A DNA stretch of 44,335 nt, taken from contig NZ_JADYTF010000014.1 in assembly GCF_021530995.1 (NCBI RefSeq), positions 1-44,335 of the forward strand, in the 5' to 3' direction. Both the position numbers and the translations under genes were made by a program. Source of the DNA: Bacteroides caecigallinarum. Its GTDB lineage: Bacteria; Bacteroidota; Bacteroidia; Bacteroidales; Bacteroidaceae. Numbering within the stretch: position 1 is the first letter of the stretch; each line of letters begins with the position of its first letter. This document shows, one piece after another, positions 131 through 6,964 of this stretch. The notes below the pieces were generated by a model. That model was not told the DNA's origin, searched no databases, and worked only from the letters and a program-made list of their open reading frames with translations.

Positions 131-1156
131 TTATAGTTTCGCTTTTGCGGATTCACTTCCCATCTTAGCCGCTGTTTTAAAATACTTTCTTGCCATCATG
201 GCATTGGCTGCAACATTTCCGCATCCTTGTTCATATATGACGCCAAGCATATAGTTTGATTCAGCACTACCGGAAGATTTAAAATATTTAATAGCATCGA
301 GCCCTTCCTTGGATTGATAAGCTTTCATTCCTTTTTCATAATTGGAATCTGTTACCTTTTCTGTTGGGGTAGCTGTCTTCTTTGTACTTGCAGGAGCTGT
401 TTTGACCTCTGTGAACTCTTCACTAGGTACTTGTCTGGTTGCAGGTTGTTCTGTATAACCGCTTCCTGCTACCTCTTTAACTTGTTCTTGTGGGGTAGGC
501 TCTTTTTGTTGGGGCGTAGTTTCTCCTGGTGTTTTAAAAACAAAAAACAGACCAACTACAACGGCTATTCCAATACATGCGGCAATTATTTTCATTGTAT
601 TGCCATTGGTGTTCTCCCCCGTTTTAGGTTTAATTCCTTGGTCGCCGGCTATTGCGCCTATACCTTTTTGGTTCTTGTCGTTCGGGACACCTTGTGGGGT
701 AGGATTAATTTGCTGAGGTCCACCAGGATTAAAATCAGGTATTCCCTGTCCTTGGTTTGGTATTTGCGGTCCTCCCTGTACCGGATTCTGATAAATAATG
801 TTGTATGTGACATTATTAGTATTAGAGTTGACCACTTTTTGAGAATTGTCCACATTTGAAGTGCTGATACTATTGGTAGTATTAGCCTCTACATGTGTAT
901 TGTTATTCTCTGTCATAGATTGTGTTTCAATCTTACGCCCAGTTATGCCACCTACCACATTACTTCTGCTGCCAATCTGGATGCCATCTTTTGATGCCTC
1001 ACTGTCTTCCAATATAGATTGCGCTTTTTTTAGTGCTTCATTTTCATTAGTCTTTACAGAAGCTTCGTCCACAAGATTTTCTCCGCAGTTGGGACAAGTC
1101 TCCATCTCGGGAGTGGTAGGTTCTCCACAAGATGGACAAAATTTATTCGCATTCAT
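131..1156 (-). CDS. Zinc-ribbon, single-TM protein with Sel1-like C-terminus
   Basis: This is a 341-residue protein of unknown function. Residues 7-24 form a double-CxxC zinc ribbon (C7, C10, C21, C24). A low-complexity Asn/Thr-rich and Pro/Gly/Gln-rich stretch follows (about 75-180), then one hydrophobic segment (about 187-207), a Thr/Pro-rich linker, and at 273-341 a helical repeat with the Sel1/TPR pattern (YxLGxIYEQG, then KYFKTAAKMGS). With no signal peptide, the ribbon is predicted cytoplasmic and the Sel1 part outside the inner membrane. The gene is last in the five-gene minus-strand operon and overlaps the preceding stop codon by 4 bases (ATGA), so its translation is coupled to, or fused by frameshifting with, that gene. 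The ribbon-plus-TM layout recalls B. subtilis YdjG, but that comparison is my inference. Confidence 0.85.
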   Translation of the reverse strand: MNANKFCPSCGEPTTPEMETCPNCGENLVDEASVKTNENEALKKAQSILEDSEASKDGIQIGSRSNVVGGITGRKIETQSMTENNNTHVEANTTNSISTSNVDNSQKVVNSNTNNVTYNIIYQNPVQGGPQIPNQGQGIPDFNPGGPQQINPTPQGVPNDKNQKGIGAIAGDQGIKPKTGENTNGNTMKIIAACIGIAVVVGLFFVFKTPGETTPQQKEPTPQEQVKEVAGSGYTEQPATRQVPSEEFTEVKTAPASTKKTATPTEKVTDSNYEKGMKAYQSKEGLDAIKYFKSSGSAESNYMLGVIYEQGCGNVAANAMMARKYFKTAAKMGSESAKAKL

Positions 1157-1587
1157 CTCTTTTTTCTTTTAAAATTATTGTTACTTTTTTTCTTCTTTTT
1201 TCTTTGTGCGAGAACAAGTTTGTTCATGGCCGGTTCTTTTTTTTCGTTTATACAAACTGTTTTCTCGTCTGAAGCTTCTTCCTTTTCTTCTTTTGGCATA
1301 AAAACCAAATCAGATGGAAATGAAGTTTGTTCCGGTACATGGATTAGTTTCCCTTCTGAAGTCTTTACAGATATGGTACATATAAATCCTGTATTTTCCA
1401 ATTCGCCGTTGATTTCAACTTCTTGCTGATCAAACTGTTTGAAGAAACTGTCGTTTATATCAAAAGTTCCTTTTCGGTATAATCTGTATGACTCCCCTGA
1501 TGGAGTAATCAGATAAGTCATAAAACCTTCTGATTTCGATCCTTGTCCGGCTAACTTATATTCAATATGACCTTTGTAGGTATCCAT
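1153..1587 (-). CDS. Small protein with beta-rich N-terminus and Lys-rich tail
   Basis: This 144-residue protein is not assigned to a family. Residues 1-80 alternate in a way that suggests a small beta barrel, possibly OB-like. Residues 90-115 are acidic, and the last 20 residues are dominated by Lys and Arg. It has no signal peptide or membrane segment, so it should be cytoplasmic. It lies 27 bases after the SPFH gene and overlaps the next gene by 4 bases. The tail is encoded by A-runs holding two in-frame A AAA AAG heptamers; only the second leads into an open -1 frame. The basic tail could bind nucleic acid or acidic lipid head groups, which is a guess from composition. Confidence 0.8.
   Translation of the reverse strand: MDTYKGHIEYKLAGQGSKSEGFMTYLITPSGESYRLYRKGTFDINDSFFKQFDQQEVEINGELENTGFICTISVKTSEGKLIHVPEQTSFPSDLVFMPKEEKEEASDEKTVCINEKKEPAMNKLVLAQRKKKKKSNNNFKRKKR
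1159..1165 (-). promoter_or_regulatory. Candidate -1 frameshift heptamer A AAA AAG
   Basis: The last codons of the upstream gene read AGA AAA AAG AGA TGA, which places A AAA AAG in the exact X XXY YYZ register used for -1 slippage. After slipping, the ribosome would read GAG and then the ATG of the next gene in frame. The A-rich stretch could instead simply be the ribosome-binding region of the next gene, since Bacteroidota favour A-rich sequence over Shine-Dalgarno sites. Confidence 0.45.
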
Positions 1588-1614
1588 TTGTTTTCAGTTT
1601 ATTGATATAGACTC

Positions 1615-3768
1615 TTAAATTTGTTCACCGCATTCTGGGCAAACTTTTGTATCTTTGCTTATTGAAGCACCACATCCGGGACAATACATTTTTTCGTTTT
1701 CATTCGATTTCGATATTGTACTTTGTTTTTCTTCATTTTGTTGTGTTACCGGTACTGTTTGTCCTTGCTGTAAAGGCCTGTTTGCCAGTTCACTTGGGGC
1801 ATATCCTTGTCTTGTTGTATAATTTAAAGATTGGTTATAAGCATTGTCAGCCCTTTGTTGCTGGTAGAATGTCTGCTGTGTCTGAAGATTTGCCTGATTT
1901 GCCTGATTGTCAAGCATGCGGTTCATCAATTGATACATCATCTCTTGGTTTCTACGCTGTTCTTCATTCAGACGTTCGCTTGCGGCTCTTTCTACCTCAG
2001 CATTATTTCGGGCTGTGTAGGAGCGTGCAAATTCCAAGGAAACTTCCCCGCCGCTCATTGCCAATATTTGCTCTGGAGTCAGATTACTTTGGATGTTGGC
2101 CATATTTTCATTGTGGGCAAATTGTTGTGCCTGCATGTCGGCCTGGTGTCTCCGCTCGTTTTCTTTGCTCGCTTCTTGAGCCTGCAGAATTTGCATGAGC
2201 CTTTCCTGTTGCTGCCTGTCTTCTTCCATCTCCAGCTCATGTTCGCGCTTACGTTGTTCAAATTGCAGGTCAGCATCACGTTTACGTTGCTGGTAATCAA
2301 AATCTGCGTCCCTTTGTCTGTTTGCCGCTTTTTGATCTTCAAGCATTTGTTGGATGTGGAGTTCAGTCTTGGCTTTTTCTACCATCATCTCGTTTTCGCC
2401 CTGCATTCTAATACGCTCAAACTCAATACTGTCTTTAAGCTGAGACAATCGCAGAGCCATACCACGTTGATATGCATGTTGTTCGCTAAGGGCTCTGATT
2501 TCTGCCAGATCGTCTTCTCTTATTAGTCTGGTTCTTTCAATTTCTGCCAAGGCTGCTTCACGTTCTTCCTTGGTGCGTGCTTCTCGCAGCAAACGCTCGT
2601 TTTCGAGTAGCATGACGAATTTATTCATTTCGTCTTCTGTCAGTAACTGGTCTCTGTTTATCTCGTTAAGCCTTTGCTGTAATTCTACGGCAGTGCGCGC
2701 TGTATGTATTTGCTGACTGTTGTTGACGTCTGCAAGTCTGTTCTTAAAATCATTTGTACGTCGGAGATAGTCCAGTTCCTGTTCGGAAAGATACATCTCA
2801 TGACTTAAATTATTGAATCGCTGTATATCTTCATTGTCAGCAGAAATCTCAACGATACGCACAATTTCCAATCCCCAGAAAGCTTCTGCTGCCGCAATGT
2901 TCAGTTGCTCTTTTATTACCGTCAATAGCTCGGCTGGTATTCTGTTTGATGTAATCGGTTTATCATACAGAACTTCTTGAATTGTTGTTCTTACAGTTTC
3001 AGCTATTTCATCTATCAGTATTGCTGTATTAAGATATTGTTTATCTACGAGATAATGTAATATGAATTCTTCCTGTTTCTTTATTCGGAAATAAGCATTC
3101 AAACCGATATTCATGTCATGGTGTTGTGTATGGATAATCATCGGTTTGAAATTATTGTAATCATCCAGATTTTTTTGCTTAGCTCCTATAAGCATCGGAA
3201 ATGCCCTGTCTAGCAGGATTACAATCGAGAATGACGCTCCTGCTTTTGCTTGTGCAAAAATATCTCTTTGCTGTTTGGCGTGCATTTCTACCTTTGATTC
3301 TTCCTCGGGTTTGTTTTCCAGCTGTTTTCTTCGGCTCTTGAATAAGTCGATGATAATTTGCCATGCATTACTTATGCATGTAGATACAGTTTCTCCAACC
3401 GAAGTACGTCTTGGCTGGAAATCATAAGAACCACCGCTGATGCTTGCTATTGTCGTACCATTTGCGCGGATAAACGCAGTTGTTCCTTCGGCTATAATAA
3501 TGCCTTCAACATCCTTGTAAGTTGCCATTTCCTGTTCGGTTATGACACGTGCCACCTGACCTGGAGTGATATTCCAGTGAATACGCTGGTTTGTAACAAT
3601 CAGATCTTCCTTCAGATTTTCCTTTTCATTTTTATTGCCCTGTTGGACATCTGTAGGTTGATTCTGAGGTTGTGTTGCTTCAGGTATATTTCCGGAAACT
3701 TTAGTTCCACATTTTACACAAAACTTGGCACCTGGTTTTAATGGAGCGCCACATTTAGAACAATTCAT
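1615..3768 (-). CDS. SPFH/virion-core-like coiled-coil protein with zinc ribbons at both ends
   Basis: This is a 717-residue cytoplasmic protein. A zinc ribbon at 3-20 (C3, C6, C17, C20) is followed by a domain at about 80-310 with the pattern of SPFH/band-7 proteins of the YdjI or 'virion core protein' type. A long, highly charged coiled coil (about 320-545), a Gln/Asn-rich stretch, and a second zinc ribbon (C696, C699, C710, C713) complete it. SPFH proteins oligomerise at membranes as scaffolds, and coiled coil after SPFH is the usual layout. In B. subtilis a comparable protein is encoded with a PspA homologue and small zinc-ribbon partners in ydjFGHI. No PspA homologue is visible here; the neighbours are a C25-type protease and zinc-ribbon proteins. 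The family call is from residue pattern only. Confidence 0.8.
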   Translation of the reverse strand: MNCSKCGAPLKPGAKFCVKCGTKVSGNIPEATQPQNQPTDVQQGNKNEKENLKEDLIVTNQRIHWNITPGQVARVITEQEMATYKDVEGIIIAEGTTAFIRANGTTIASISGGSYDFQPRRTSVGETVSTCISNAWQIIIDLFKSRRKQLENKPEEESKVEMHAKQQRDIFAQAKAGASFSIVILLDRAFPMLIGAKQKNLDDYNNFKPMIIHTQHHDMNIGLNAYFRIKKQEEFILHYLVDKQYLNTAILIDEIAETVRTTIQEVLYDKPITSNRIPAELLTVIKEQLNIAAAEAFWGLEIVRIVEISADNEDIQRFNNLSHEMYLSEQELDYLRRTNDFKNRLADVNNSQQIHTARTAVELQQRLNEINRDQLLTEDEMNKFVMLLENERLLREARTKEEREAALAEIERTRLIREDDLAEIRALSEQHAYQRGMALRLSQLKDSIEFERIRMQGENEMMVEKAKTELHIQQMLEDQKAANRQRDADFDYQQRKRDADLQFEQRKREHELEMEEDRQQQERLMQILQAQEASKENERRHQADMQAQQFAHNENMANIQSNLTPEQILAMSGGEVSLEFARSYTARNNAEVERAASERLNEEQRRNQEMMYQLMNRMLDNQANQANLQTQQTFYQQQRADNAYNQSLNYTTRQGYAPSELANRPLQQGQTVPVTQQNEEKQSTISKSNENEKMYCPGCGASISKDTKVCPECGEQI

Positions 3769-3794
3769 ATATTATATGATTTTTAGATTAAACA

Positions 3795-5507
3795 TTATTT
3801 GGTAATTCTGACACTTCTTATTTTTCCATTCATGTCGGACGATACGCTCATCAGATTGTAAAATCCGTCCGGCGCACTTTTATGCTCATCCAAATTGTAT
3901 TGAATTTCATACCCTTTTTGTCCGCTAACAGATGTTGTCCGGCTCATGCTGATCGGTTTTCTAGGGCTTATACCCCATTCCTTGTAGAGCTGGTCGTTTA
4001 TTTTCGATTGAATTTCTGCGATGTTTGCGTCAACCTGTGCTCTAACTTGTGCCAATAAAGACATAGGTTTTGTTTCTTCTTCTAGTGGTATAGGTACGTT
4101 TTCCAGTTTGCAGGAAGCTGTTGTCGGATTTATCAATGTCCCGATATTGGTATTTGTTGCAGGTTTTGAAGCTTTGTTCATTTTCTTGTTCATGATGAAC
4201 AGTGTCGGATCGCCAAATAGGTTAAACTCTACTAGAGTTGTTGATTCTACAGGTCCGATTTCAGAAGTCTGATGCATAATTCTTTTGGCTTCGAACAATG
4301 CAGCTCCAGCCGGCAGACCATCCAGCAAATTGTTTACAAATTCTCCGGTAATAACGTCTGCGTTATTCATTAGGACAGGAGAGTTTGCTTCATGAGGGTC
4401 AGGTTGACCGTATGCCACGCGTGACGCACCCAGATATATTAATGTGTTTGTACTCATAGCAGTCAAAAGCATACTATGTTCCTTGTCAAAACCAATGAAA
4501 CGGGCTCCATAACAAGCTTCTGATACAATTACGTTAGGTTGGTTGCATGCGGCGATTGCTGCAGGGAAAACAGCAATTCTCCAGTCTTCGGAGTCCTTTG
4601 TAGATTGTCCCAAAAAATAGAATGTATCTTTGGCAGCAGAGCCATGTAAATTAAAGAAAAACAGCTGTGCATTTGTATTAAATACCTGACCGATTATTTT
4701 ATGATCAACTTCGGGTGTAAGAAATAATTGTCCATATAATATTTCTTTTGGTAATGGCTTGTAACAAGGAAACAGCTGTTCTCTGCTCATCCTGTTTGTT
4801 ACTTTGGCTGTTACTTTCATCCAGTGAGGGTCACACTGTCCATATCCTGCATCTATCTCAATAACAGGATTTTCGACAACTCTTTGCAGATAGCCGGCAA
4901 GATCCTGATATACTGCATCTGTCGCTAACGGTAATCTGCCAACATAAAACAGTGCATCATAAAAAAATATTTCTCCGGATCGGATTGCGTCATTCATCTT
5001 TGCTCCATAGGGATATGCATATAATAAATCCGTATCAATTTTTTTATCAGGGTCACTTGCTTTATCCCCTAAATAATGTGGTATGGCAGGCATAGGTATT
5101 ATGTCATCTCCACCTATGATAAACAGGAATGTTGATGGCTCTTCACGCTTTCGTGTTTCTTCATCGTGAATTTGTTTAAGTATGTCGGCATATTCATGCC
5201 ATGGAGAATCCTGGGTAAGGCTTCTTTTACTGAAGAACCCTTTTTGTTCAACTCCTGCATCAGCCAGTCTATAGAGGATACCTTGTTCCGCTTTAAGTTG
5301 GATAAAGGAATTTAAAAGGTCAGTTATATCCTGTTGGCTGACTGATAATTTTCTGGCCAGATAGGGTATATGTGTAAACAATATGCCTTTTAATACCGGA
5401 GCGTCATAACTTTTTTCGTATTCCTGCTCGACTTTAGTTCCGCATTCAGGGCAGAACAACATGTCATCATCTAGTTGGTTTCCACATTCGGGACAAAACA
5501 TAGGCAT
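3795..5507 (-). CDS. Cytoplasmic gingipain-like (peptidase C25, clan CD) protease with zinc ribbon
   Basis: This 570-residue protein starts with a zinc ribbon (C5, C8, C19, C22). Residues about 126-440 follow the C25 pattern: a strand ending in GGDDIIPMP, then VGRLP, then FFFNLHGS with candidate catalytic His288, then VSEACYGA with candidate catalytic Cys332, and the closing FNLFGDPTLF. That His-to-Cys order and spacing is the clan CD (caspase/gingipain/CHAT) signature. Known gingipains are secreted and carry a type IX secretion signal; this protein has neither a signal peptide nor such a C-terminal domain, so it should act in the cytoplasm. Residues 440-570 are an unassigned helical and beta segment. 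It lies 26 bases before the SPFH gene and shares the zinc-ribbon module with it. Substrates are unknown. CHAT is the main alternative label. Confidence 0.82.
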   Translation of the reverse strand: MPMFCPECGNQLDDDMLFCPECGTKVEQEYEKSYDAPVLKGILFTHIPYLARKLSVSQQDITDLLNSFIQLKAEQGILYRLADAGVEQKGFFSKRSLTQDSPWHEYADILKQIHDEETRKREEPSTFLFIIGGDDIIPMPAIPHYLGDKASDPDKKIDTDLLYAYPYGAKMNDAIRSGEIFFYDALFYVGRLPLATDAVYQDLAGYLQRVVENPVIEIDAGYGQCDPHWMKVTAKVTNRMSREQLFPCYKPLPKEILYGQLFLTPEVDHKIIGQVFNTNAQLFFFNLHGSAAKDTFYFLGQSTKDSEDWRIAVFPAAIAACNQPNVIVSEACYGARFIGFDKEHSMLLTAMSTNTLIYLGASRVAYGQPDPHEANSPVLMNNADVITGEFVNNLLDGLPAGAALFEAKRIMHQTSEIGPVESTTLVEFNLFGDPTLFIMNKKMNKASKPATNTNIGTLINPTTASCKLENVPIPLEEETKPMSLLAQVRAQVDANIAEIQSKINDQLYKEWGISPRKPISMSRTTSVSGQKGYEIQYNLDEHKSAPDGFYNLMSVSSDMNGKIRSVRITK

Positions 5508-5521
5508 TAAAAATTAGTTTG

Positions 5522-6964
5522 TTATTTGATGTATTTTTCTCTTTTCTTAGTTACACCTTTCACATAATTACGAGCTTCGGCTGTGCTCAGTTTATTAGTC
5601 AGATGGTGGTATAACTTAGTGTAGTCAAGCTTGTTGATTTCGTTATAGGCATTACTTACACGTGTTGTTCCAATGAACGCGCGGCTTACATTTCCCGCTC
5701 CTGTATTATAGCTTGCTATTACGCATAATCTTCTGCAATGTACATTTTTAACCTTCTCAAACGTATTATATAAAATTCTCAGATAGGCTGTTCCCAATTC
5801 AATGTTCCGTTCTGGATCAAACAAATAACTCTTTGTGGGTACTTTCTCTATACCATAAACGAAGCTATATGCATGTACTCCACCGGATGTTGGAACTAGC
5901 TGCATGAGTCCGTATGCCGGAATATGACTTGTGGCTTGAGGATTGAAACTTGATTCCTGTTCCATAACCGCAAAGATCAGTGGCTGTTCAATCTGGAATT
6001 TATTGCTGTATTTTTTAACGATGTCTTTATATAAAGCTGCAGACTTGGATATATTGTCACTAACTAAAGGTAAATTAATATAAACAACTTTGCGATTACT
6101 TCCGTCTTTTCCTGTTACTTTAGTTACAGATTTGTTGATTTGCTTTGCAACTTGGTAGGCAATGTTTTCCTTGGATTTATTGCTGAGATTTTGCTTCTCT
6201 TCACTTTGCGGCAGAGCAACTTCTTTTTTATTTTTTTCTTTCTCTTCCAATTTAATTCTCGCCAGTGTCTTGTCTTTTTGCGAACGCTTTTGAGATTCAG
6301 TCTTTTTAGGTATTTTCAGTTCTCCACCTCTGACTATAGGCTGGGGAGGAGTCTTTTTCTTATTTGAGGTTGGGCTTTTGTGGCTCTTCATATTTTCTGA
6401 AGTCAAATCTATATGATAGTCTGACAAGTCCAATAATCCGTCTAATACCGGATTTTGGGTTATGGGCTTGGACTGATCTACTTGTGAACGGTAGGGACAA
6501 GTGCTGCCTCGGCTGACCATTAAATTGTATATAGCTTCTGTAAGCTTTTCGTCAATTTCTTCCTGATTGGCGTTCGGATCAACTGCAATTTCTACCAAAG
6601 CATTGCCTTTCTCGAAATTTACAATAGAACGTGAAAGGAAATCGTCACTGTACTCAACCCATTCATATTTTGAATCAAGTACTATGGAATCTCCTCCCCA
6701 AACTTTTTGGATATTGTTTTTATATATGTTAAATTCAGCTGTCGCTTTCTCAATATAGTCATTATAAGCTTTTTTTACGGAGTCGGCATATTGCTCAAAG
6801 TCATTTTTTTCTGCATTGATACGGGCATTAAAATCTCTGACCAATGAATTCAATTCATCTTCCGTTGTTTGTGCTTTTATAGGTATATGACAAACAACTA
6901 GTAATATAAATGCGTATATTACCAACCTTAAAAATTGTTGTTTGTAGTCGTATGGTTTCATCAT
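5522..6964 (-). CDS. MltC-like lytic transglycosylase (DUF3393 plus SLT domains)
   Basis: This 480-residue protein is predicted to cleave the MurNAc-GlcNAc bond of peptidoglycan with 1,6-anhydro ring formation. Residues 1-31 are a signal peptide ending IKAQ; there is no lipobox (Val precedes Cys25), unlike E. coli MltC, which is a lipoprotein. Residues about 38-150 match the MltC N-terminal domain (KVWG, then YSDDFLSRSIVNFEKG). A Lys-rich linker (200-270) leads to the SLT domain, with catalytic Glu337 in ESSFNP, then YGLMQLVP and ASYNTGAGN. It is the first gene of the minus-strand operon, 14 bases before the C25 protease gene. Finding it with cytoplasmic zinc-ribbon proteins suggests the operon acts on the envelope. 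Confidence 0.9.
   Translation of the reverse strand: MMKPYDYKQQFLRLVIYAFILLVVCHIPIKAQTTEDELNSLVRDFNARINAEKNDFEQYADSVKKAYNDYIEKATAEFNIYKNNIQKVWGGDSIVLDSKYEWVEYSDDFLSRSIVNFEKGNALVEIAVDPNANQEEIDEKLTEAIYNLMVSRGSTCPYRSQVDQSKPITQNPVLDGLLDLSDYHIDLTSENMKSHKSPTSNKKKTPPQPIVRGGELKIPKKTESQKRSQKDKTLARIKLEEKEKNKKEVALPQSEEKQNLSNKSKENIAYQVAKQINKSVTKVTGKDGSNRKVVYINLPLVSDNISKSAALYKDIVKKYSNKFQIEQPLIFAVMEQESSFNPQATSHIPAYGLMQLVPTSGGVHAYSFVYGIEKVPTKSYLFDPERNIELGTAYLRILYNTFEKVKNVHCRRLCVIASYNTGAGNVSRAFIGTTRVSNAYNEINKLDYTKLYHHLTNKLSTAEARNYVKGVTKKREKYIK

Follow-up and report, generated by a model that had tools for sequence, protein, structure and literature searches.

Five genes at a contig end of Bacteroides caecigallinarum belong to a nine-gene module combining a predicted SPFH protein, a Peptidase C25 domain and zinc ribbons

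We analysed a window of 44,335 bases that is the entire contig C55 of genome G000, from Bacteroides caecigallinarum. Near its first base lie five minus-strand open reading frames (ORFs; Table 1) that encode, in the direction of transcription, a lytic transglycosylase, a zinc-ribbon protein with a Peptidase_C25 domain (the C25 protein), a predicted SPFH protein with a ribbon at each end, a small predicted OB-fold protein, and a protein with a zinc ribbon, one transmembrane (TM) segment and a Sel1 repeat (the TM protein). Read along the forward strand, the spacing between the ORFs is −4, 27, 26 and 14 bp, in agreement with the close packing noticed in a preliminary description made from the letters alone. 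They form the first part of a module of nine genes, which is cut by the contig end; the module is found in some gut Bacteroidales, and its core combines themes of known SPFH systems.

When bacterial and archaeal genomes were scanned with an alignment of the SPFH protein, 43 loci were confirmed, 44 with the window. Judging by the record names, we take the 43 to be Bacteroidales; Mediterranea massiliensis, Butyricimonas synergistica, Muribaculum sp. An289 and Alistipes metagenome-assembled genomes are among them. The usual gene order is transglycosylase, C25, SPFH, OB, ribbon/TM/Sel1, LpoB/CsgG-like, DUF6175, LPP20-like and small LPP20-like lipoprotein. At the 25-bit threshold used to tally members, with profiles derived from these loci, the C25 and TM protein genes were each found in 43 of the 44 loci (one of the latter at only 29 bits), the OB gene in 40, DUF6175 in 39, the LpoB/CsgG-like gene in 34, the small lipoprotein gene in 32, the LPP20-like gene in 27 and the transglycosylase gene in 24. 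With the 60-bit threshold used for order and completeness, all nine genes are present in 20 of the 44 loci and the C25, SPFH, OB and TM protein genes together in 40; no locus mixes strands among its module matches of at least 60 bits, and the OB gene lies directly 3' of the SPFH gene in 40 loci. The proposal that these genes form one module was supported, as relatives keep them together, in order and on one strand, and the C25 and SPFH protein bodies share their genomes in both samples described below, except in one genome whose contig ends just past C25; they are not usually found apart. Five loci have no DUF6175 gene: the window, whose gene lies on another contig; L043, L048 and L050, which end within or just past the core; and L078, which carries other genes. 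Periplasmic genes stand upstream of the C25 gene in seven loci (L061, L067, L068, L069, L072, L074 and L077). L078 has a divergent core (C25, SPFH and a ribbon/TPR protein), and the secreted proteins encoded after it are a different set.

The missing half of the module was located with a DUF6175 relative from Mediterranea as the query, which gave a single match in the window's genome, on contig C335. There the genes for the LpoB/CsgG-like, DUF6175, LPP20-like and lipoprotein members follow one another in order (locus L080, 148-4284), and by hydropathy all four products start with signal-like segments, the last with a Cys suited to a lipoprotein. In Mediterranea, the relative of gene 6 matches LpoB over the cut-off (E 9.2e-8) and CsgG (0.0038) and FlgT_M (0.082) below it; relatives of gene 8 match LPP20, and one relative of gene 9 matches LPP20 below the cut-off. 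Exact copies of the first 123 bases of the window occur on five other contigs, the first 115 bases of C335 are repeated on two further contigs besides its own, and broken ORFs, which we take to be the two ends of an IS630-like transposase gene, occupy both contig ends flanking the split operon. Because both of these ends are multi-copy sequence with broken ORFs, we infer that a multi-copy element was inserted between genes five and six in this genome; no complete copy of it was found on contig C5. Base composition was not clearly unusual: the two module blocks have a GC content of 0.40 and 0.38, against 0.37-0.43 elsewhere.

Table 1. Features of the module in the window (aa, amino acids of the product)
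Feature	Position	Strand	Remarks
MltC-like lytic transglycosylase, 480 aa	5522..6964	-	signal peptide; SLT aa 316-430; optional module member
Zinc ribbon + Peptidase_C25 (caspase-type) protein, 570 aa	3795..5507	-	no signal peptide or clear TM segment; H288 and C332 invariant
N-terminal zinc ribbon of C25 protein, aa 5-22	5442..5495	-	Zn_Ribbon_1 E 1.3e-8; CxxC at 5 and 19
Zinc ribbon, predicted SPFH domain, long coiled coil, zinc ribbon protein, 717 aa	1615..3768	-	AlphaFold2, Foldseek, VIA-align, ribbon matches, hydropathy
Predicted SPFH domain, about aa 62-318, helical insert about aa 134-176	2815..3585	-	AlphaFold2 model, structure matches, profile-profile match
N-terminal zinc ribbon of SPFH protein, aa 3-20	3709..3762	-	Pfam, CxxC positions
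C-terminal zinc ribbon of SPFH protein, aa 696-713	1630..1683	-	Pfam, CxxC positions
Small predicted OB-fold protein, 144 aa	1153..1587	-	barrel aa 2-83, SKSEG motif, polybasic tail; directly 3' of SPFH gene
Zinc ribbon, single TM, Sel1 repeat protein, 341 aa	131..1156	-	predicted inner-membrane link
TM segment of ribbon/TM/Sel1 protein, aa 190-208	533..589	-	hydropathy 2.64 over 19 residues
End of multi-copy sequence at contig edge	1..123	.	100% identical copies on five other contigs

The SPFH identity of the 717 aa protein could not be established with sequence profiles. No Pfam SPFH model matched the window protein at E 1, nor any of the 42 aligned members at E 0.001, and the ten Pfam families that do match these members are all ribbon-type or domains of unknown function (DUFs); a sequence search of the PDB with the C25 and SPFH proteins returned ribbon-type and other short matches. 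We relied on the predicted fold instead. An AlphaFold2 model was built from an alignment of 42 of the 44 proteins (L050, which is cut, and L055, close to L053, were left out); it has a mean predicted local distance difference test score (pLDDT) of 73.7, a predicted template modelling score of 0.47 and a long helix at aa 418-560. Rows 1-23 of the Foldseek output are SPFH entries throughout, with HflK/C (E 2.2e-6, probability 1.00), 7vhq, erlin, flotillin and stomatin among the matches. Template modelling scores for the whole model are low (0.11-0.22 by query length) because a single domain matches; by target length, stomatin SPFH domains reach 0.57-0.69. VIA-align placed prohibitin at Z 10.6 (root-mean-square deviation 3.7 over 190 residues) and its first non-SPFH entry, FliL, at Z 7.3; FliL, the vault protein and the ribosomal proteins that stand below the SPFH rows were taken as similarities of arrangement only. 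In addition, hhalign aligned the profile of the SPFH protein (aa 64-318) with Bacteroidota Band_7_1 proteins at a probability of 72.4 and E 3.3e-5, against 0.5 for an unrelated control profile; HMMER gave no match. We therefore assign the protein to the SPFH superfamily by its modelled fold and not by Pfam profile; the SPFH scaffold proposed earlier has its support from this predicted fold. No clear TM segment was seen in this protein, whose single hydropathy peak (1.6 at aa 178) falls on predicted strands of the SPFH domain.

The C25 protein of the window scores 26.6 bits against Pfam Peptidase_C25 (PF01364), for which the cut-off is 23, and 36 of 39 relatives match this family at E 0.1 or better (best 3.4e-15). 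The alignment used here holds 39 of 42 proteins, leaving out L039, L043 and L055; L050 had been dropped earlier by the length limit. Residues H288, G289 and C332 are invariant in all 39, and H288 and C332 are presumably the catalytic residues of C25 peptidases. Since the His and Cys are invariant and the family is matched by most relatives, the protein is likely to be an active enzyme. By hydropathy neither the C25 protein nor the SPFH and OB proteins have a clear signal or TM segment. A further domain of about 200 residues is encoded by a separate gene in L068 (13765-14487) and L074 (13758-14561), in both cases 3' of the TM protein gene, and forms the C-terminal part of the C25 protein in L078 (845-3289); the L078 domain matches the two separate genes at E 9e-11 and 2e-15. 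Because L078 fuses C25 to a domain encoded within the L068 and L074 operons, the C25 protein is tied to the operon. This domain, for which the separate genes gave no Pfam match, has an RN-x-x-[SA]-H motif that we take to be reminiscent of HEPN RNases.

For the 144 aa protein, AlphaFold2 predicted a barrel with a pLDDT of 94-97 over aa 1-80, with strands and one helix in the order of an OB fold. The alignment comprised 38 of 40 proteins, L048 and L051 being left out as their starts are uncertain. Foldseek listed ribosomal S12 and others, at E 0.009-0.09 among the matches listed and none below 0.001; VIA-align listed SSB, PriB and NigD-like proteins with Z values up to 7.0, none of them 8 or more. 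These structural matches are, as we read them, mostly OB-fold entries, and because individually weak matches agree on one fold, we predict that the protein is an OB-fold protein. Hydropathy gave no TM or hydrophobic segment in the window's OB protein, and a PDB sequence search with it returned one meaningless match.

The transglycosylase matches SLT (E 3.2e-27) and Mltc_N (E 5.4e-9), so that it combines the SLT domain with the N-terminal domain expected of the MltC type, and its N-terminus is hydrophobic and signal-peptide-like by hydropathy. This agrees with its earlier description as a secreted MltC-like enzyme; the NCBIfam MltC equivalog cut-off was not reached (193.7 bits against 375). The slot upstream of the C25 gene varies among the 44 loci: it holds the transglycosylase in 24 and a different, weakly transglutaminase-like gene in six, and in 14 neither was found, although nine of these 14 still have at least 8 kb of sequence upstream of the C25 gene. 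The two genes were never found in the same locus. The different gene (L069:6396-7907, L058:5877-7601 and four more loci) encodes a secreted protein in the position of the transglycosylase, with a weakly transglutaminase-like C-terminus, a label that comes from weak matches (E 0.03-0.1) in the two of the six that were scanned. The link to cell-wall turnover made in the preliminary description was thus retained in part, with a transglycosylase in 24 loci, another gene in six and neither in 14.

The core is sporadic yet cohesive in its distribution. In a sample of 151 genomes of the family, the body of the SPFH protein was found in seven and that of the C25 protein in eight, namely the same seven and G093, whose contig stops about 45 bases past the C25 match and which is the sole genome with a C25 body and no SPFH body match. 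The C25 and SPFH genes adjoin in six of the seven genomes and lie on separate contigs in G134; the eight other genomes of the genus have neither. The periplasmic family also exists in genomes that do not carry the core. The C25 protein of G093 (C81:1876-3585, on a 3.6 kb contig) is 95% identical to that of the window although it belongs to a different genus, which suggests a recent transfer or a binning error.

We compared the evolutionary distances of the module proteins pair by pair. The C25, SPFH and ribbon/Sel1 proteins correlate at 0.79-0.87 (0.65-0.87 with the transglycosylase included), and the LpoB/CsgG-like protein correlates with DUF6175 at 0.74. Between these two groups the values are lower, 0.36-0.43 for C25 or SPFH against the LpoB/CsgG-like and DUF6175 proteins (0.25-0.43 with the transglycosylase included). 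The short OB protein correlates with the core at 0.49-0.63 and with the periplasmic pair at 0.35-0.39. The TM protein, at 0.55 and 0.58 with the LpoB/CsgG-like and DUF6175 proteins, is intermediate, as expected if it links two sub-complexes.

As Pfam and the CxxC positions confirm, the 341, 717 and 570 aa proteins all start with a ribbon that has two CxxC, and the 717 aa protein also ends with one; in the TM protein, Zn_ribbon_3 is matched over the cut-off (E 1.7e-6) and Sel1 below it (E 8.6e-5). All four fall in Pfam zinc-ribbon families. To call them near-identical was an overstatement, as they are mutually 33-50% identical over 24 residues and of a type common in the order. Of 42 C25 proteins, 41 retain at least one ribbon (the remaining one is truncated at its N-terminus), as do all 44 SPFH proteins and all 41 TM proteins examined. 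In a sample of 393 genomes of the order, the SPFH profile matched 97 at E 0.001 and the C25 profile 83, but the protein bodies were matched only in G000, G227 and G260 (up to two candidates per genome were scored with the SPFH alignment and up to three with the C25 alignment). In the other 94 of the 97, the listed rows lie at profile positions 1-94 or 620-739, which are the ribbon-bearing ends. Since most of the matches to both profiles fall outside the protein body, the ribbons are of a common type, and the proposal that they might act as a specific docking tag is weakened. Within a locus, the ribbon at the C-terminus of the SPFH protein was more identical to the C25 ribbon and to the TM protein ribbon than in any of 2000 shuffles, whereas for the other four ribbon pairs the within-locus identity was reached by 293, 514, 1010 and 1484 of 2000; because relatedness is uncorrected, we draw no inference from this test.

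The module most likely serves in envelope quality control or answers damage to the envelope by proteolysis, a reading that we put at about even odds; the five genes would be its cytoplasmic and inner-membrane half. The SPFH protein would form a cytosolic ring or cage at the inner membrane, bound by the OB protein in the way that NfeD OB domains bind flotillin or stomatin, and the caspase-type C25 protease would be the enzyme held by this scaffold. The ribbons may tether the SPFH protein and the protease to the TM protein, which would bridge the membrane to a periplasmic and outer-membrane set made of the LpoB/CsgG-like, DUF6175, LPP20-like and lipoprotein members, joined by the lytic transglycosylase in many genomes. 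The job of such an assembly could be a protease response to envelope damage or to misfolded envelope proteins, comparable to that of the stomatin/NfeD-protease, HflKC-FtsH and PspA-YdjGHI systems. A more specific version, which we hold to be doubtful, would have the SPFH cage, held in place by the zinc ribbons, store the protease and free it when the single-pass protein reports damage sensed by an LpoB/LPP20/DUF6175 complex on the wall and outer membrane; the state of the outer envelope would then be read by a caspase-like pathway within the cell.

By analogy, the core resembles an SPFH/NfeD/protease system with a caspase-type protease and YdjGHI-like ribbons, joined by a single-TM protein to a periplasmic set. 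HflK/C and prohibitin complexes, which are among the best structural matches through their SPFH fold, scaffold a protease; FtsH, however, is an ATP-dependent membrane protease, and the enzyme of the module is a C25 protein with no clear TM segment. Peptidase family C25 includes the gingipains and PorU, and the module enzyme shares with it the domain match and the conserved His and Cys positions but differs in its N-terminal zinc ribbon, its missing signal peptide and its predicted cytosolic location. Module genes 6 and 8 have domain matches in common with LpoB/CsgG/FlgT and LPP20 proteins; no curli or flagellar genes were noticed in the loci, although no profile search was made for them. YdjI of Bacillus subtilis presumably belongs to PF13421 (Band_7_1), a model that does match in B. 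subtilis, whereas none of 42 module SPFH members match it at E 0.001. According to the excerpts of PMC8581546, YdjI is an SPFH protein that is predicted to be soluble, carries a zinc finger close to the C-terminus and needs YdjG/H for its recruitment to the membrane, and the likeness of the module to pspA-ydjGHI lies in this predicted-soluble zinc-finger SPFH protein that depends on membrane partners of its own operon. In the same excerpts, the C25 protease, the OB protein and the periplasmic genes of the module have no counterpart (PMC8581546). The Pfam matches of the nine constant members (not every further ORF of the loci was scanned) include no PspA family, and by these profiles the module is not a Psp system.

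In the parts of the literature covered, SPFH proteins are paired with NfeD or with NfeD-protease fusions, or act with FtsH (PMC2636767), and the bacterial flotillin FloA is bound by an NfeD OB domain (PMC11222466). The module is like these stomatin/flotillin-NfeD systems in that an OB-fold gene adjoins the SPFH gene and a protease is associated (PMC2636767, PMC11222466, as excerpted). It differs in that its protease is separate and caspase-type, not ClpP-like, and in that its SPFH protein bears ribbons and has no clear TM segment; with the OB fold and the SPFH adjacency present and the TM segments missing, it is not an NfeD system by membership. The archaeal Meth_adaptin loci encode an SPFH protein with a coiled coil and a zinc ribbon in a membrane-related operon, but the available text of PMC10936438 ties it to adaptin-like and ESCRT-type proteins and names no C25 or wall enzymes.

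Several observations weigh against the envelope-response reading. The wall enzyme is optional and not part of the constant core, being absent from many loci, some of them with at least 8 kb of upstream sequence. The periplasmic half is partly interchangeable, given the variable transglycosylase and the wider distribution of DUF6175, which is found in 39 of the 151 family genomes, namely all eight with C25 and 31 with no C25 body match. The OB protein lacks the membrane part of NfeD and matches known structures weakly (Foldseek E above 0.001, VIA Z at most 7.0). All loci were found through the SPFH gene, so its presence in 44 of 44 holds by construction, and L054 has no adjacent C25 or OB gene. 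Finally, the distance correlations of 20 out of 21 protein pairs were not reached in 300 permutations (that of the transglycosylase with the LpoB/CsgG-like protein was reached by 18), but these permutations ignore the shared species tree and only the contrast between pairs is used.

A role in defence or cell death, in which an SPFH cage and ribbon proteins would set the caspase-type protease free once they sense damage to the membrane or by phage, with the transglycosylase or an RNase-like partner helping to kill, is in our judgement unlikely. It would fit the patchy distribution (the C25 body in eight of 151 family and three of 393 order genomes), the transfer, or binning error, suggested by the near-identical C25 of G093, and the extra gene of L068 and L074 that is fused to C25 in L078 and whose motif is HEPN-like, with no Pfam match. 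Caspase-like peptidases are also frequent in conflict systems (PMC7159879, in the part covered). Against PADLOC, however, the five window proteins gave no more than two matches, which are weak at E 0.0049 and 0.014. Among 117 flanking genes (up to two ORFs of at least 110 aa per side, some possibly on the wrong strand), none of the 25 of 36 PADLOC families listed matched more than two at E 1e-15, and the commonest of the 25 of 125 Pfam families listed are metabolic, both counts standing with no control set. The SPFH protein had no match in plasmid or phage records and C25 none in phage records, and a pattern scan of viral contigs confirmed no relative of either. The constant gene set, the large periplasmic part and the missing obvious variable effector are likewise unlike conflict systems as they are described in the excerpts consulted.

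We consider less probable still a trans-envelope export or assembly machine, in which the transglycosylase would open the wall, the CsgG/LpoB-like and LPP20-like proteins would make up the outer-membrane side and the TM protein the inner-membrane side, and cargo would be handled or processed by the SPFH cage with C25. Wall-opening enzymes accompany many envelope-spanning machines, and the relatives of gene 6 (LpoB and, below the cut-off, CsgG and FlgT_M) and gene 8 (LPP20) match suitable families; yet by Pfam and hydropathy none of the nine members is an ATPase or a polytopic channel, no recurrent cargo-like gene was noticed in the loci, and the transglycosylase is missing from many of them. 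That the genes are mere neighbours, the ribbon being a common cytoplasmic domain and the periplasmic genes an independent operon, is already disfavoured and to our mind highly improbable: the ribbon-only matches in 94 of 97 matching order-sample genomes, the wider distribution of DUF6175 and the lower correlation between the halves speak for it, but the order is kept in 20 complete sets out of 44, no strand break occurs among module matches, and the C25 body stands without the SPFH body in one genome only, where the contig ends.

SPFH proteins are already known as organisers of membrane proteases, and a zinc-finger SPFH protein has been linked to envelope stress in Bacillus. A conserved operon in which such a scaffold is joined by a caspase-type protease and an NfeD-like OB partner, and which extends across the inner membrane to proteins of the wall and outer membrane, would offer a tractable system for the control of proteases by SPFH proteins and for the response of Bacteroidota to envelope damage. 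Searches of the open PubMed Central literature (most subscription papers and bioRxiv lie outside this scope) found nothing on DUF6175, on SPFH with zinc ribbon and Bacteroides, or on C25 with zinc ribbon and Bacteroid-. In the same literature, SPFH with caspase and zinc ribbon led to a paper with SPFH only in its reference list; no paper combined three of FlgP, FlgO, LPP20, LpoB and CsgG; and three together of LPP20, CsgG, SPFH, Bacteroidetes and lytic transglycosylase, or SPFH with lytic transglycosylase, returned unrelated titles only.

A mobile origin of the module was considered and rejected, as SPFH is absent from the plasmid and phage records searched and the plasmid relatives of C25 are only distant, at 22-25% identity on nine Rhizobium, Bradyrhizobium and Novosphingobium plasmids. 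The annotation of two of these plasmid neighbourhoods names no SPFH or ribbon gene, many genes there being labelled hypothetical. On a Rhizobium leguminosarum plasmid (L104), the distant C25 peptidase lies near genes for a caspase family protein, a chitosanase and an L,D-transpeptidase.

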